Shown: positions 5,182-10,996 of the stretch, piece after piece
Numbering within the stretch: position 1 is the stretch's first letter
Layout: each line of letters begins with the position of its first letter
DNA from: Terriglobales bacterium
Lineage (GTDB): Bacteria > Acidobacteriota > Terriglobia > Terriglobales > Acidobacteriaceae
DNA length: 35,616 nt
Reading direction: 5' to 3'
Assembly (NCBI GenBank): GCA_030038475.1
Contig: JASHOU010000091.1
Location: forward strand, 1 to 35,616
The notes under the pieces: generated by a model
Databases searched by the model: none
Told to the model about the DNA's origin: nothing
What the model saw: the letters and a program-made list of their open reading frames with translations, nothing else
Made by a program: the position numbers and the translations under genes

Positions 5182-6977
5182 TGCAGCGCGACCATCGCAA
5201 TTCATTTCCGTCAACGGCCCTAACGCGCTTACTCGTCTTCGCATTTCTTCTGGTCGGCACCGGGCTCTGTTCTAATGCCCAGCAGTCAGGATCGATCCCA
5301 AACGCCTCTTCCATCTCCGGCACGGTCGTGCAGGAACCCGGCAGCCAGCCGCTCAAGAAAGTGCTGGTGCAGGTCGTTCCCGAAGACCAAAGCCAGGGCG
5401 CGAACTACACCGACGCCACCGACTCCGATGGTCATTTCCGCATCGCGAATGTTTCGCCCGGACGTTACCGCATCTATCTTGAGCGCACTGGCTTTACCGG
5501 AGTCAACGAGCGTGGCCGCAGATCCAACACCAACGTTTTCACCGTCCAGGCCGGGCAGTCGCTCGAAGAACTTGTGTTTCACATGTTGCCCACCGCCGTC
5601 ATCGTCGGCCGCGTCACCGATGAAGATGGAGATCCCATGCCGGGCGTCAACGTTATCGCGGAGAAGAAACAACCGGGCAAATCCAGACGGGAGAACGTCG
5701 GTTCAGGAACTACCAACGATATGGGCGAATACCGGCTCTTCGGCTTGTTTCCCGGACAGTATTGGGTCGTCGCCATTCCGCCTCCCGATTTTCGCGACTA
5801 CGAGTCGACGACCGAGAAGTCGGTGTCTGGCAGCGACGAAAAAAACAACAACATCGCCGCTGACGCCAAGCCTGATACTCGCTATCTCACCACTTATTAT
5901 CCCGGCGCGCTCGACGCCTCGCAGGCCTCAATTCTCACGCTCAAAGCAGGCGACGAAATGCCCGCCAACTTCACACTTGTGCCCACCAGAACCTATCGCG
6001 TCCATGGAACGATCGCCGGTATTTTGCCCGGCCAAAAGCCCACCGTAGAGCTGTTTTCGAAAGCTGGCGATTCCTACCGCGCCAATTCCACGGAGATCGG
6101 TCCCGACGGCCAATTCGAAGTGCGCGGCGTTGGCCCGGGCTCGTATGCAATCAGGGCATCGCTCGGCACCGATTCGCAACCGCTCACAGCGCGACAGGAC
6201 ATTAACGTGGGTGCCAGCGATGTCGATGGAGTGAGACTTGTTCCGCAGCCTCTGTTTACCATCTCCGGCAATTTGCGAGTACAAAACAATGCAGCAACAG
6301 ATCTCACTCAATATGTCGTCAACCTCCGCGCGAGCGAAGTACCGGACGATGCCACTGTCTTTTTATCGCAAGAGTCCGCCGGAGAGACTTCGCCCGTCGA
6401 CCGCTTCGGCCACTTCGAGTGGAAGAACGTATGTCTGGGCGATTACATCGTGCAGGTCTTAGGCGGCAATATCGTAGAAAGTGATGTCTTGGGCCATGGC
6501 CAAGGAGTGTATCTCAAATCGGCGACGCTCGGCGGACAAGACATCACGACCGGTTTCACGGCAAGCGGTCCCGCGACGCTTGAGCTGGTGCTGAGCACCA
6601 AAGGAGCAGCCATCGAAGGCACGGTCGTTGAGAAGGAAAACGACATCGAAGAAAAGCCAACGGCAAACGAAAATGCTGTCGATATCAATCATCCCGCAAC
6701 CAACGCCATGGTCGTCGCTGTGCCCGAAGAGAAATACCGCAAAATTCCCAGCCGCTTCGTCGCCGGAACCACCGATCAGCATGGACGTTTCGCCCTGCGT
6801 GGCCTCGCTCCCGGCAGCTACACGCTCCACGCGTGGCAAGACGTGGAGGATGGCCTCTGGCGCGATGCAGCGTTTCTGAAATCGCAGGAAGCCAATGGCA
6901 CAAGCGTGAAAGTCGAAGAAGGTTCCAATCAGAAAATCGAGTTGCAGCTAACTGCGCTCGGCGATGACTGGCACTAG
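5145..6977 (+). CDS. Large secreted protein with carboxypeptidase-regulatory-like domains
   Basis: 610 residues from ATG 5145. A hydrophobic export segment (LLVFAFLLVGTGLCSNAQ) sits at about residues 28-46. The start is doubtful: residues 1-13 are encoded by the loop and right arm of a palindromic repeat, and GTG 5181 would give a more ordinary signal peptide. Several beta-sandwich regulatory-like modules follow: ISGTVVQEPGSQPLKKVLV with DGHFRIANVSPGRYRIYL; VIVGRVTDEDGDPMPGVNV with GEYRLFGLFPGQYWVV; a third with DGQFEVRGVGPGSYAIRA; and a last one with HGRFALRGLAPGSYTLHAW. Such Acidobacteriota proteins resemble the N-terminal half of TonB-dependent or Oar-like proteins but lack the barrel. The role is unknown, perhaps surface carbohydrate or protein binding. 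No terminator was seen after it; a REP copy lies 30 bases downstream. Confidence 0.8.
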   Translation: MHSAANTQVLRFVQRDHRNSFPSTALTRLLVFAFLLVGTGLCSNAQQSGSIPNASSISGTVVQEPGSQPLKKVLVQVVPEDQSQGANYTDATDSDGHFRIANVSPGRYRIYLERTGFTGVNERGRRSNTNVFTVQAGQSLEELVFHMLPTAVIVGRVTDEDGDPMPGVNVIAEKKQPGKSRRENVGSGTTNDMGEYRLFGLFPGQYWVVAIPPPDFRDYESTTEKSVSGSDEKNNNIAADAKPDTRYLTTYYPGALDASQASILTLKAGDEMPANFTLVPTRTYRVHGTIAGILPGQKPTVELFSKAGDSYRANSTEIGPDGQFEVRGVGPGSYAIRASLGTDSQPLTARQDINVGASDVDGVRLVPQPLFTISGNLRVQNNAATDLTQYVVNLRASEVPDDATVFLSQESAGETSPVDRFGHFEWKNVCLGDYIVQVLGGNIVESDVLGHGQGVYLKSATLGGQDITTGFTASGPATLELVLSTKGAAIEGTVVEKENDIEEKPTANENAVDINHPATNAMVVAVPEEKYRKIPSRFVAGTTDQHGRFALRGLAPGSYTLHAWQDVEDGLWRDAAFLKSQEANGTSVKVEEGSNQKIELQLTALGDDWH

Positions 6978-7008
6978 AAACTGACTCGCAACGGACGCCG
7001 CCGGAGCA

Positions 7009-7099
7009 GGCTGGGGTTTTCCCAACGGCGAAGGTGCGCTCGCCGCCGAAAAACCCCCGCCCAAGCGGAGCTTGGACGGGCCACCCCTCCAGTATGTAC
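7009..7099 (+). repeat. REP-type repeat copy A (RAYT 3'-end-like plus hairpin)
   Basis: Bases 7009-7086 match the 3' end of the RAYT element at 10836-10912 over about 77 bases with roughly a dozen differences. They include the imperfect hairpin CCCAAGCGGAGCTTGGACGG. The adjoining 7055-7099 matches copy C (10245-10290) in the opposite orientation over about 45 bases with about four differences, including GTACATACT. The copy lies between the stop at 6977 and the ribosome binding site of the gene at 7127. Confidence 0.75.
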
Positions 7100-7126
7100 G
7101 AGCGTCTTAATTCCAGGGAGGGATCA

Positions 7127-7864
7127 ATGAACCAACTCAGCCAAAAGATAGTCAAAATGATCGCATTAGGAGCTTTTGCGCTGGTTATCGCGTTCGGCGA
7201 ATGCTGGCAAGCGCAAGCACAGGACTCAAAGGCACCGTACGCGAGCATGGCTCCGCTTGATCAATATCTAATGGCGGATCGAAACGCTGAGATTGCTCTG
7301 GCGCAAAGCGCGGCTCCCGAGGCTATCTCGCGCGATGCCGACGTTCTCGTTCTTGGAAGGCATGGCTATGAAACCGCAGTCAAAGGCAAGAATGGTTTCG
7401 TATGCCTCGTAGAGCGCGGGTGGATGGGCCCATTCGATGGCGAGGACGCCGCTAATTTTTGGAACCCTAAGATTCGAGGGCCGGTCTGCTACAATCCGCC
7501 GGCTGCCCGGTCCATCCTGCCGCTGACTTATAAAAGAACGGAGATGATCTTGGCCGGTCAATCCAAAGCTCAGATCATCGACGGCATCAAGATATTCATA
7601 AAGCAAAAGCTGCCACCGCTGGAGCCGGGAGCCATGGCCTACATGCTCTCGAAGGAGCAGTACCTTAACGATGGCGCCCGCCACAACTGGATCGCTCACC
7701 TGATGTTTTACACGCCACTCATGGACGGTGCCGTTTGGGGTGCAGATGTGCCCAACTCTCCCGTCATGCTGAATCCACAATTCCACGGCGCTCCGGAACC
7801 CATCGATGTATTCATGGTTCCCGCGGGCAGGTGGTCGGATGGATCCCCGGCGCCAGTCCGGTAG
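7127..7864 (+). CDS. Secreted protein of unknown function
   Basis: 245 residues. ATG 7127 is chosen because AGGGAGG ends five bases upstream and it begins a clean signal peptide (MIALGAFALVIAFG, then AQAQ). A reading from 7034 would start inside the REP repeat. The mature protein is soluble with no repeats: SRDADVLVLGRHGYETAVKG, then FVCLVERGWMGPFDG, a Cys-containing GPVCYNPPAARSILPL, a helix AQIIDGIKIFIKQK, and HNWIAHLMFYTPLMDGAVWG near the C-terminus. I do not recognise the family. Two cysteines in the exported part could form a disulfide. It stands alone between two repeat-rich gaps. Confidence 0.8.
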   Translation: MNQLSQKIVKMIALGAFALVIAFGECWQAQAQDSKAPYASMAPLDQYLMADRNAEIALAQSAAPEAISRDADVLVLGRHGYETAVKGKNGFVCLVERGWMGPFDGEDAANFWNPKIRGPVCYNPPAARSILPLTYKRTEMILAGQSKAQIIDGIKIFIKQKLPPLEPGAMAYMLSKEQYLNDGARHNWIAHLMFYTPLMDGAVWGADVPNSPVMLNPQFHGAPEPIDVFMVPAGRWSDGSPAPVR

Positions 7865-7960
7865 GGACGGCTCGCAGGCGACGAAAGATCACGAGTTACT
7901 CTTTCCTTTTGTTGTAAGGGGTACCCCCCTCCCCCCTCCTTTTAGATTAGGTATACCTTC

Positions 7961-8010
7961 GCAAAATATTCATTTTAGGCACTTTAGAGGCAAAATATTT
8001 AAAGCATTGG
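7961..8010. repeat. Short direct repeat in a long gene-free stretch
   Basis: GCAAAATATT occurs at 7961-7970 and again at 7990-7999 (period 29), followed by similar A/T-rich text, next to a C-rich run (7922-7939). This resembles an A/T-rich intergenic repeat that I recall from other Acidobacteriota genomes, but I could not check this. The rest of the gap 7865-8375 holds no supportable gene; its short ORFs have no recognisable protein features. Confidence 0.4.
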
Positions 8011-8312
8011 ACTTGTGCTTCCGCTCCGCTGAACCCTCTCTCTTAAGCGCGCTGTGATTTAAGGATTGAGGAGGCGGATAGCTTATGTCAATGGAAATGC
8101 GGCGAGTGAGTAGCTGCTTTCGTAGAGTACAAAACTAAAATGGCTCAACTACGAAAAGGGCGCCGAAACGGCACGCACCAGATTACGGACCTCTTCCTCA
8201 TCAGCCACGGCCCGTTAATACTCCCATTCCGGCAAGACTCCCATGTCGACTTTTTCATTCCGATACCGCATTACGCTCGCTCGATGCGACGCGCGCTGGC
8301 GTGGATTAGAGC

Positions 8313-8330
8313 TAGTCTGGGCCACCCGCC
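8313..8330 (+). repeat. REP-family fragment (copy B)
   Basis: The 18 bases TAGTCTGGGCCACCCGCC recur exactly at 10933-10950 just after the RAYT gene, and a variant lies at 10977-10996. It is followed by a G/C-rich inverted stretch (CCCGGGGCGGCC). Probably a decayed member of the REP family of the region. Confidence 0.5.
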
Positions 8331-8375
8331 CGGGGCGGCCTAACAACAAGGACGAGTGCTGCAAGATATTGCACG

Positions 8376-8404
8376 TTGACATGGGTTGCCGCACAACCGA
8401 TAAT
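8376..8404 (+). promoter_or_regulatory. Sigma-70-type promoter of the GloVer gene
   Basis: TTGACA at 8376-8381, a 17-base spacer, and GATAAT at 8399-8404: a perfect -35, a -10 with one mismatch, and ideal spacing. Transcription would begin near 8411 and leave a leader of about 137 bases before ATG 8548. It is the best promoter match I saw in the window. Confidence 0.6.
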
Positions 8405-8416
8405 TCGGTGAAAGGC

Positions 8417-8475
8417 GGTGCTGGTGGCCGCAATCCCTCGGGGAGAGATGCTCCTCGCCACACCAGGTTCGCACC
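8417..8475 (+). promoter_or_regulatory. Structured 5' leader upstream of the GloVer gene
   Basis: Within the predicted leader, CTGGTG (8421-8426) pairs perfectly with CACCAG (8461-8466). Inside it, CGGGGAG (8439-8445) pairs with CTCCTCG (8451-8457), seven pairs including one G-U, with a five-base loop. Outside it, GGTG (8417-8420) can pair with CACC (8472-8475). Further on, CTGCCGAATCG is repeated at 8492-8502 and 8508-8518 just before AGGAGG (8528-8533). It matches no riboswitch class I know; cis-regulation is an inference. Confidence 0.35.
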
Positions 8476-8547
8476 GCACTCGAATTGTTGCCTGCCGAAT
8501 CGGGTATCTGCCGAATCGCGGACTGCCAGGAGGATTGCCAGATTGCT

Positions 8548-10074
8548 ATGTCCACAATAAGAAGGCTGCTCGACTTTGTTTTTAACTCTACCCGTGTCTC
8601 AATTTTTGTTTTTGCTTTTGTCATGGTGCTTGCTGTGCTGCAGTCGGGCGCGGGGGCGCAGGCACAGACATTCACGACGATGGCGACGTTTAGTGGAGCG
8701 AATGGTGCGAATCCATCGGCGGGATTGGTGCAGGGTTTTGACGGAAATTATTACGGGACGACATCGTATGGTGGAGCGAACAATAGTTGCTCGTCGGGCT
8801 GCGGCGAGGTGTTTCGCATTACTCCGGCGGGCGCGGTGACGGCGATTTACAGCTTTTGCGCGAAGGCCGACTGCGTGGATGGGAACGCTCCGTATGCGGG
8901 GCTGACGCGGGCGAAGAACGGATCGTTGTATGGGACGACGGCGTGGGGAGGGGCGAATTTCTGCGCGCAGCAGGGACAGAACTGCGGGACAGTGTTCAAG
9001 ATCACCACGAAGGGCAAACTGACCACGCTGCACAGCTTCGATGGGACGGACGGCTCAAAGCCGCTGGCGGCGGTGGTGGAGGGCACGGACGGCAATTACT
9101 ACGGGACAACTTACCAGGGCGGGGCGAATGGGTCCGGCACGGTTTTTAAGATGAGCGCGGCGGGGAAGCTGACCTCGCTTTACAGCTTTTGCAGCAAAGC
9201 GAACTGCGCGGACGGAGCCTTGCCGCGCGCGGCACTGGTGGAGGGCAGCGACGGAAATCTTTATGGGACGACGACGGCGGGCGGAGCGAATTGTCAGCCG
9301 AATGGGTGCGGCACGGTTTTCAAGATCACGATGCGCGGCGCGCTGACGACAATCTACAGCTTTTGCGACCAGGCGGGTTGCGCTGACGGGGATTCATCGC
9401 TGGCGCCGCTGATTCAGGGCGCGGACGGGAACTTCTACAGCACGACGTATGGATACGGCGGACCGGCGGGAGGCGGCACAGTATTTGAGATCAGTTCGGC
9501 GGGGGCGCTGAGCGCGATTTACGACTTCTGCAGCCAACCCAATTGCGCGGACGGCGCGAACTCGCAGGGAGGGTTGACGCTCGGAACGGATGGGAATTTT
9601 TATGGGACAACAACGGGAGGCGGCGTGTACGGCGATTACGGCACGCTGTTCGGAGTAACCCAGGAGGGCGGGCTCTCGACGCTCTACACGTTTTGCGCAG
9701 ACCACCCGGCGTGCACCGATGGGCAGTCACCGGCGGCGGGATTGATGCAGGGAACGAACGGGATCTTCTACGGCACAACTTATAGCGGCGGCACGAGTGG
9801 GTATGGGACGGTGTTCAGCCTGAATACGGGTCTGGGTGCATTCGTGGAAACGACGCCGCCGTTTGGCGAGGTGGGAGCGGCAGTGGTGATTCTAGGAAAT
9901 GACCTGACAGGCGCGAGCGCGGTGAGCTTCAATGGGACGCCCGCGACATTTACGGTGGTGAAGGGCGGCACGGAGATCAAAACGAAGGTGCCCAGTGGTT
10001 CCACGAGCGGCTCTGTGACCGTGACGACGCCGAGCGGGACGCTGACGAGTAACGTGCCGTTTAATGTGCAGTGA
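8548..10074 (+). CDS. Secreted GloVer-type tandem repeat protein with C-terminal IPT/TIG domain
   Basis: 508 residues from ATG 8548. The upstream AGGAGG (8528-8533) is 14 bases away, which is long; ATG 8485 would add 21 residues ahead of the signal peptide and is less likely. A signal peptide (VSIFVFAFVMVLAVLQ, then AGAQAQ) is followed by seven tandem units of about 50-60 residues, each centred on a DGNYYGTT-type motif (variants NGSLYGTT, DGNFYSTT, NGIFYGTT) plus GTVFKI and L-T-x-[IL]-Y-S-F-C. This is the choice-of-anchor GloVer repeat family (TIGR03803). Many units carry a paired Cys pattern (FC..ADC or NC.DG) suggesting disulfides. The last 75 residues form an IPT/TIG-like immunoglobulin fold (VVILGNDLTGASAVSFNG, then SVTVTTPSGTL). 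Probably exported or surface-exposed; function unknown. Confidence 0.88.
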   Translation: MSTIRRLLDFVFNSTRVSIFVFAFVMVLAVLQSGAGAQAQTFTTMATFSGANGANPSAGLVQGFDGNYYGTTSYGGANNSCSSGCGEVFRITPAGAVTAIYSFCAKADCVDGNAPYAGLTRAKNGSLYGTTAWGGANFCAQQGQNCGTVFKITTKGKLTTLHSFDGTDGSKPLAAVVEGTDGNYYGTTYQGGANGSGTVFKMSAAGKLTSLYSFCSKANCADGALPRAALVEGSDGNLYGTTTAGGANCQPNGCGTVFKITMRGALTTIYSFCDQAGCADGDSSLAPLIQGADGNFYSTTYGYGGPAGGGTVFEISSAGALSAIYDFCSQPNCADGANSQGGLTLGTDGNFYGTTTGGGVYGDYGTLFGVTQEGGLSTLYTFCADHPACTDGQSPAAGLMQGTNGIFYGTTYSGGTSGYGTVFSLNTGLGAFVETTPPFGEVGAAVVILGNDLTGASAVSFNGTPATFTVVKGGTEIKTKVPSGSTSGSVTVTTPSGTLTSNVPFNVQ

Positions 10075-10244
10075 GTTTGTAGGTCGGTCTTCGGCAGTCC
10101 GTTGGAGCATCTGGCCGGCTCTTAGAAGCTCAGAAAGTTCTCGCCGTCCGCCCTTCGCTGGCACAGTATATTGCGGCAGTGTCGCTAGCGTACGTTGCGC
10201 GGGGGCACCCGGCTGACTAGCAGGGCTTTTGGTTTTCGTCCAAA

Positions 10245-10290
10245 GTACATACTTCGAGGGTGGCCCGTCCAAGCTCTGCTTGGGCGGGGA
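10245..10290 (-). repeat. REP-type repeat copy C (inverted, upstream of RAYT)
   Basis: Contains GTACATACT and the hairpin GTCCAAGCTCTGCTTGGGC. It is the reverse complement of bases 7055-7099 over about 45 bases with about four differences. It lies some 50 bases before the RAYT start, in opposite orientation to copy D at the end of that gene. The rest of the gap 10075-10341 shows no gene. Confidence 0.75.
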
Positions 10291-10302
10291 TTTTGTTTGC
10301 CC

Positions 10303-10329
10303 ATCACAGACTCATCAGTCCCCTGTGAT
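10303..10329 (+). repeat. Short inverted repeat before the RAYT start codon
   Basis: ATCACAG (10303-10309) and CTGTGAT (10323-10329) form a perfect seven-base stem with a 13-base loop, ending 12 bases before ATG 10342. It could sequester the start region or act as an operator; no Shine-Dalgarno sequence is visible there. Confidence 0.4.
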
Positions 10330-10341
10330 TAACATGCGCTC

Positions 10342-10935
10342 ATGCCGTGGGGATTGAAGCACTTCCAGCAGACGCGACAGATTCACTTCCTGACCTTCAG
10401 TTGTTATCACCGCGAGCAGAAGTTCGCCGATGCGATCGCTCGCGGCACGTTTGTCTCTGCGCTGGAGCGAGTGCGCGAAGATTACAGTCTTTGCATCTAT
10501 GGATACGTCGTTATGCCGGAGCACGTACACTTGCTCGTAAGCGAGCCGGAACGAAGCACGCTGGCCCAAGCTATAAAGTCTCTGAAGCAAGGTGTTGCGC
10601 GGAGGCTGGCGCTGCGGGCTGCGGATTCGTTCTGGCAGGCGCGGTATTACGATTTCAACGTGTGGAGCGAGAAAAAGTTTGTGGAGAAGTTGCGCTACAT
10701 TCATCGCAATCCGGTGAAGCGCGGATTGGCGGCGCGTCCTGAAGATTGGCTGTGGAGCAGCTTTCGACACTATGCAATGGGTGAGGCGGGAGTGGTTGAG
10801 ATTGAATCGCAATGGACGGCGCGGAAGCGGGAGTGGGCTGGGGCTTTCCCGACAGTGAAGATGCGCTCGCCGCAGAAAGGCCCCGCTCAAGCGGAGCTTG
10901 AACGGGCCACCCTCGGGAGCGGGGATGGGGGTTAG
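10342..10935 (+). CDS. REP-associated tyrosine transposase (RAYT, IS200/IS605-like Y1)
   Basis: 197 residues. A Y1-type HUH nuclease that in known RAYT systems cuts and joins single-stranded REP hairpins. The metal-binding motif is in MPEHVHLLV (His near 61 and 63). The catalytic Tyr is in RYIHRNPVKRGL (Tyr near 119), followed by PEDWLWSSFRHYAMGE. The N-terminal LTFSCYHRE is typical too. The canonical protein ends near residue 162; from about residue 165 the frame runs through the REP-like 3' end of the element (10836-10912), so the C-terminal 30 residues are translated repeat. It is flanked by inverted copies (C upstream, D at its 3' end), the arrangement expected of a REP-RAYT unit. No terminal duplications or partner tnpB are visible. 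It appears intact. Confidence 0.92.
   Translation: MPWGLKHFQQTRQIHFLTFSCYHREQKFADAIARGTFVSALERVREDYSLCIYGYVVMPEHVHLLVSEPERSTLAQAIKSLKQGVARRLALRAADSFWQARYYDFNVWSEKKFVEKLRYIHRNPVKRGLAARPEDWLWSSFRHYAMGEAGVVEIESQWTARKREWAGAFPTVKMRSPQKGPAQAELERATLGSGDGG
10836..10912 (+). repeat. REP-type repeat copy D (3' end of RAYT element)
   Basis: Overlaps the last codons of the RAYT gene. Contains the hairpin GCTCAAGCGGAGCTTGAAC within complementary flanks (GGCCCC / GGGCC). It is the same sequence type as copy A at 7009-7086, same orientation, and contains the same hairpin as copy C, inverted. Confidence 0.75.
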
Positions 10936-10996
10936 TCTGGGCCACCCGCCAGCGGGGCTTTTGCTTTTCTGCGGAGTTAGTGTGGGCCACCCGTCC
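10933..10996 (+). repeat. Two tandem REP-family fragments
   Basis: TAGTCTGGGCCACCCGCC at 10933-10950 is identical to 8313-8330. TAGTGTGGGCCACCCGTCC at 10978-10996 is a variant. Both carry the GGGCCACCC core shared by the REP copies; the second ends 60 bases before the gene at 11056. Confidence 0.5.

Follow-up and report, generated by a model that had tools for sequence, protein, structure and literature searches.

The RAYT gene and the repeats surrounding it

The DNA analysed here (the window) is a whole contig of 35,616 bp (G000:C166) from the draft genome (4.46 Mb, 216 contigs; G000) of an uncultured soil acidobacterium (Terriglobales bacterium, GCA_030038475.1). It harbors a gene for a REP-associated tyrosine transposase (RAYT), which, as in the original prediction, is bracketed by inverted copies of a hairpin. 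The features of interest are as follows.

10342-10935, plus strand: RAYT (TnpA-REP) gene, 197 aa, with HVH at residues 61-63, Tyr119 and NPVKRG at 123-128
10258-10288, plus strand: REP C, upstream of the RAYT; head GGGTGGCCC at 10258-10266, hairpin at 10264-10288
10876-10912, minus strand: REP D, inverted copy overlapping the RAYT 3' end; head at 10904-10912
10876-10932, plus strand: RAYT codons about 179-197, i.e. translated REP D plus spacer
10933-10950, minus strand: outer box, the right-hand tip of the unit (end at 10950); minus-strand GGCGGGTGGCCCAGACTA, 35 nt outside head D
10980-10996, minus strand: a further box-like sequence (GGACGGGTGGCCCACAC), lying 45 nt beyond the first box on the outer side
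10219-10237, plus strand: left copy of a 19-nt direct repeat (17/19) flanking the unit
10951-10969, plus strand: right copy of this repeat, beginning directly behind the tip at 10950
6982-7099, plus strand: element A; relic of a RAYT 3' end from 6982 to about 7057, REP at 7050-7086 (head on minus strand), followed up to 7099 by an outer flank resembling that of C
8313-8330, minus strand: B, a lone outer box with the same sequence as the one next to D; no hairpin head lies 20-60 nt inside it

The protein passes the NCBIfam model NF047646 "REP-associated tyrosine transposase" (110 bits, cut-off 80) and scores 42 bits with Pfam Y1_Tnp. It contains the HUH motif, the catalytic Tyr and NP(L/V)(R/K)xG, the set by which RAYTs are defined in the available text of PMC2817692, and in an alignment of 34 RAYT sequences Y119, N123 and P124 are invariant while H61 and H63 are conserved in at least 90%. 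Its best match in the PDB, both by sequence (E 2.6e-9) and as the top fold match of its structure model (Foldseek E 1.4e-10; mean pLDDT 84.9, lowest confidence at residues 171-177), is 4er8, a TnpA-REP bound to a REP hairpin. Two more RAYTs passing the model are found in the same genome (L008, G000:C155, 114 bits; L009, G000:C181, 92 bits), each surrounded by different hairpins of its own, those of the RAYT on C181 having the head GTAG.

Hairpins C (10255-10294) and D (10876-10915) are inverted repeats of 40 nt with 88% identity, and C (10245-10294) is likewise 88% complementary to A (7050-7099) over 50 nt. When folded as single-stranded DNA, the cores are more stable than shuffled sequences (z -4.2/-4.3 for C, -2.7 for D and -2.7 for A); the longer segments of D (116 nt) and A (105 nt), with z scores of -0.8 and -1.2, do not surpass shuffles, which places the structure in the cores. 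The window head has GTGG next to the base of the hairpin, in agreement with the tetranucleotide GT[A/G]G. The 18-base sequence TAGTCTGGGCCACCCGCC, which had been described as a shared core, is indeed identical at 8313-8330 and 10933-10950, where it begins with the stop codon of the RAYT, and it represents the outer box that marks the sharp outer end of the unit. A corresponding left outer box outside C is absent in the window unit. The direct repeat (17/19) around this unit was matched by only 1 of 5000 shuffles, and it counts against movement without target duplication (see below).

The last 30 residues of the RAYT had been read as translated repeat. This applies to about 19 of them (about 179-197), while the preceding residues belong to a RAYT C-terminus that is common to the homologues. 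Among 21 loci with the window hairpin type near the gene end, the tail is in the window frame in 3, in a second frame in 7 and in a third in 2, and in the remaining 9 it is in none of these, as the gene stops ahead of the hairpin, runs on or is broken. A selected protein tail is ruled out by this use of three frames or none, and the tail is most likely read-through. REPs inside a RAYT gene with the frame open are seen in L037/L075 (G010:C137:8500) and L086 (G003:C126:1745); in this regard the relatives G010 and G003 resemble subclass 2.4 of TnpA-REP (among subclasses 2.1-2.8 and class 3), for which in-frame REPs inside tnpA are described in the available part of PMC6006769.

Element A joins a RAYT 3' end to a C-type flank, as had been noted: it matches the 3' end of the window RAYT from 10803 on (79% nucleotide identity over 111 columns), and GTACATACT is common to the outer sides of A and C. 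At the protein level, A matches the RAYTs of relatives from about residue 151. However, it should not be interpreted as a non-autonomous derivative of the window gene. Its tail frame ends in PRPSGAWTGHP while the window RAYT ends in PAQAELERATL, and this difference, together with the 79% identity, rules out a recent derivative and identifies A as what is left of the 3' end of a different RAYT; it has a single hairpin and no outer box. The gene before A encodes a CarboxypepD_reg protein, behind which a glycosyltransferase gene lies within 150 bp in 8 of 9 relatives and at 3 kb in the ninth; the counterpart of the latter gene in the present genome is on a separate contig (C176), hence A is situated either at a synteny break (window 6977-7000) or at an assembly error. 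Tail-only relics with a recurrent 5' edge at RAYT residues about 142-152 comprise A, L031/L064, L077, L088 and L239, but since a RAYT tail is lacking in the majority of the 77 REP copies retrieved, this edge gives no mechanism. In L031/L064 (G020:C106) the tail-plus-REP piece is fused head to tail onto the start of a RAYT reading frame. The neighbourhood of B showed no further similarity among the fetched loci. Both A and B are old relics.

Inverted hairpin pairs at RAYT loci of Acidobacteria

Relatives of the RAYT were obtained from records with labels such as Acidobacteriaceae, Acidobacteria or Terriglobia; 80 loci were retained, and 12 of them were omitted as being incomplete or truncated at a contig end. 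In the other 68 loci plus the window (69), inverted pairs were sought between the 350 bp upstream of the gene and a stretch of about 360 bp spanning its 3' end; 67 were scored, two having flanks that were too short, and the best pairs have a median score of 34. A pair scoring above the best of 670 shuffles (13.5) surrounds the gene at 60 of the 67 loci, including the window, as against only 3 of 302 control places of the same geometry within the same loci; at the other 7 loci no pair above this threshold was found. When flanks were swapped between loci, 42/67 exceeded the 95th percentile, a control that is harsh because the heads are common to the loci. Two of the passing loci are exceptional, viz. 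L064, which has no REP pair, and L080, where the pair is a headless palindrome.

The head GGGTG[G/C]CCC is present in both arms in 46 of the 60 paired loci and in at least one arm in 54, and most of the remainder have the near-variants GGCTGCCCC, GGTTGCCCC or GGGTACCCC. In the wider family, GGGTGC is found in 152 of 167 heads without an outer box, so that the tetranucleotide is mostly GTGC and not GT[A/G]G. The stem types follow the RAYT tree: 12 changes are required for the 50 loci, out of 69, whose stems could be assigned a type, as against 29.8 for shuffles, none of 200 reaching so low a number, a result that is favoured by near-identical rows and that includes one false change from L061, mistyped from its outer box. 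The linkage of hairpins and RAYT is thus not coincidental, and the RAYT model, the flanking pairs, the clade-following stems and the fold match with 4er8 all bear out the original reading of the locus as a REP-RAYT unit.

Copy number in the genome and its relatives

Copies of the hairpins were counted in the present genome and 23 congeners (24 genomes). The window type, GGGTGSCCCGYYCAAGC, has 4 copies in its own genome (C, D, A and one on contig C61), and 34, 20, 12, 8 and 7 in G020, G007, G003, G014 and G017, respectively; in six genomes it has none. The reversed control of GGGTGSCCCGYYCAAGC gave 0 copies in 24/24 genomes. Across the 23 congeners the number of copies correlates with the RAYT bit score (Spearman 0.85, uncorrected for relatedness), and the five congeners with the closest RAYT are the five with most hairpin copies (Mann-Whitney p 3e-4 against the rest). 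A second stem type, TATCGC, occurs in 7/24 genomes, including all four in which a RAYT of the TATCGC type was seen. Up to 7 RAYT matches are present per genome.

The expectation that the repeats occur elsewhere is therefore borne out in relatives (up to 34 copies, in G020). However, with only 4 exact copies the REP is not abundant and dispersed in its host, a pattern seen in modest form in relatives only. Further, the C61 site is found together with its hairpin in another species (G014) too, from which it follows that this copy is old, and the description of the system as active or recently active is not supported for this genome. Of the shorter strings, GGGCCACCCG alone is not enriched in the present genome (12 vs 14 in the reversed control) and GGGTGSCCCRNNC is (31 vs 7). 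Seven of these 31 heads have another stem type, similar to C-TAACGTCGC...GCGACGTTA-G (C27, C36, two on C68, C78, C102 and C107), and no RAYT matching this stem type was seen in the genome.

Outer boxes and the ends of the units

An outer box was defined by the pattern GG[GC]TGGCC[CT], 20-60 nt outside a hairpin-bearing head on the same strand. It is found at 40 of 173 such heads, compared with a mean of 0.18 and a maximum of 1 in shuffles, and 0 in the opposite orientation. A second count gave 58 of 226, with 168 heads lacking a box within 20-60 nt. Most REPs are accordingly without an outer box, which counts against the explanation preferred below. In the 58 box-aligned copies, positions -3 to -1 (GGC), lying outside the search pattern, contain 1.24, 1.48 and 0.83 bits, and GG at -3,-2 is present in 47/58 REP-linked boxes versus 32/102 boxes without a REP (p 1e-9). 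At -4 and beyond, the information content of the 58 boxed ends is about 0, i.e. no fixed target lies next to the end.

Seven similar pairs of units were compared; in some of these, the two whole units lie at different sites of one genome. Similarity ends at both outer boxes in L093/L106 (one genome) and L079/L084, at the right box only in L060/L061 (one genome) and L107/L109 (96%), at the REP heads in L111/L115 and L074/L076, and at neither boxes nor heads in L069/L073. Internally deleted units, in which inverted hairpins enclose only pieces of a RAYT, were found among the 77 REP copies in G020 (L294, L299, L301) and G017 (L339). A target-site duplication was seen in none of 13 two-tip rows (common strings of 3-6 nt). 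The direct repeat (17/19) that touches the tip in the window was not seen in other two-tip units. No empty sites were found among 291 motif clusters compared with the fetched loci.

Interpretation of the RAYT/REP unit

Based on these results, the most probable explanation, to which as a whole we assign a probability of about 0.75, is that the RAYT, predicted to be an HUH-type single-strand nuclease/strand transferase, and its cognate REPs constitute one unit, of about 700-760 bp from tip to tip in relatives. The sequences suggest that the unit and its hairpins have left copies and broken pieces elsewhere. In single-stranded DNA, the RAYT would bind the hairpin in its folded form together with the 5' head, make a nick near the outer end and transfer the strand to another place, with no duplication of the target. 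The products accumulating in this way would be entire units, units with internal deletions, and REPs as single ends. The sharp edge of similarity points to the tip as the site that the RAYT may cut. In the available text of published work, TnpA-REP cuts single-stranded REP substrates and the head helps to select the cut site; by analogy, the window RAYT may cleave single-stranded REPs with the head guiding the cut. As its left outer box is lost and A and B are old relics, the window unit itself is likely a low-activity or resting copy.

RAYTs are called domesticated, and not moving as a unit, in the parts of the published accounts available. A tentative reading, to which we would give a little under even odds, is that the acidobacterial RAYTs are not domesticated single-copy genes; the whole unit would function as a transposon whose compound end consists of the outer box tip GGCGGGTGGCCC, a spacer, a second head and a hairpin, and the scattered REPs would be ends of it that are broken or have internal deletions. 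The opposite view, which we consider doubtful but deserving of serious weight, is that the RAYT is domesticated and immobile, the gene being inherited vertically while only the small REPs spread, and that the unit copies of relatives arose long ago by segmental duplication or transfer. The low copy number in the present genome and the vertical C61 copy agree with this view, as does the description of RAYTs as single-copy and vertically inherited in the available text of PMC8049555; however, segmental duplications are not expected to end at the outer boxes, where pairs of units lose their similarity, and up to 7 RAYT matches occur per genome.

That the hairpins act as intrinsic terminators or as elements for RNA stability, their association with the RAYT being secondary, is improbable: these GC-rich hairpins frequently have TTT on their inner side, but the T-run is located there irrespective of gene direction, and the conserved head, the outer tip beyond the hairpin and the stems that follow the RAYT tree are left unexplained. 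An ordinary IS200/IS605 insertion sequence, with which the catalytic fold is shared, is very improbable, as the IS200 model NF033573 gives 34.3 bits (below the cut-off of 55) where the RAYT model is passed, the ends are inverted rather than same-strand hairpins, and a conserved target ahead of the tip is absent.

Relationship to known systems and significance

RAYT/REP systems and acidobacterial "TIRYT" genes are already known. With REPtrons, as described in the available texts of PMC2817692 (Nunvar 2010) and PMC8266576, the window family shares the RAYT family model, HUH plus Y and NP(V)(K)xG, inverted hairpins with a short 5' head, co-variation of REP and RAYT and, in the window, a GTGG head, which is among the known GT[A/G]G heads. 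It differs from them in that the family head is mostly GGGTGC rather than GTAG, the copy number is low, and a second outer box on part of the ends as well as copies of whole units are observed. The TIRtron/TIRYT of Acidobacteria (Di Nocera 2013), in the available part of PMC3733652, are Y1 genes with inverted repeats on both sides; genomes have several such genes (three in Koribacter), and the repeats sometimes overlap the 3' end of the gene, as one does in the window. In contrast to that description, the window-family repeats are headed hairpins with dispersed copies, and the GGGGWSAS motif, which part of the published set contains, is absent from all four window places. Compared by description, the window family is likely the same group as the published TIRYT. 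A literature search based on listings and text passages retrieved no report on the window-family head strings in Acidobacteria, and the compound end and the unit-wise duplication look new.

The window thus contains a real RAYT/REP unit of a family that is spread through Acidobacteria, with a likely low activity in its own genome. The acidobacterial family may help to answer by what route REPs disseminate and if RAYTs have ever been mobile as units, and its several RAYTs per genome, sharp unit ends, fixed head and clade-specific stems provide material for tests of hairpin reading and cut-site choice. If the units are indeed working transposons, this family would represent an extant connection between REPtrons and elements of the IS200/IS605 type.
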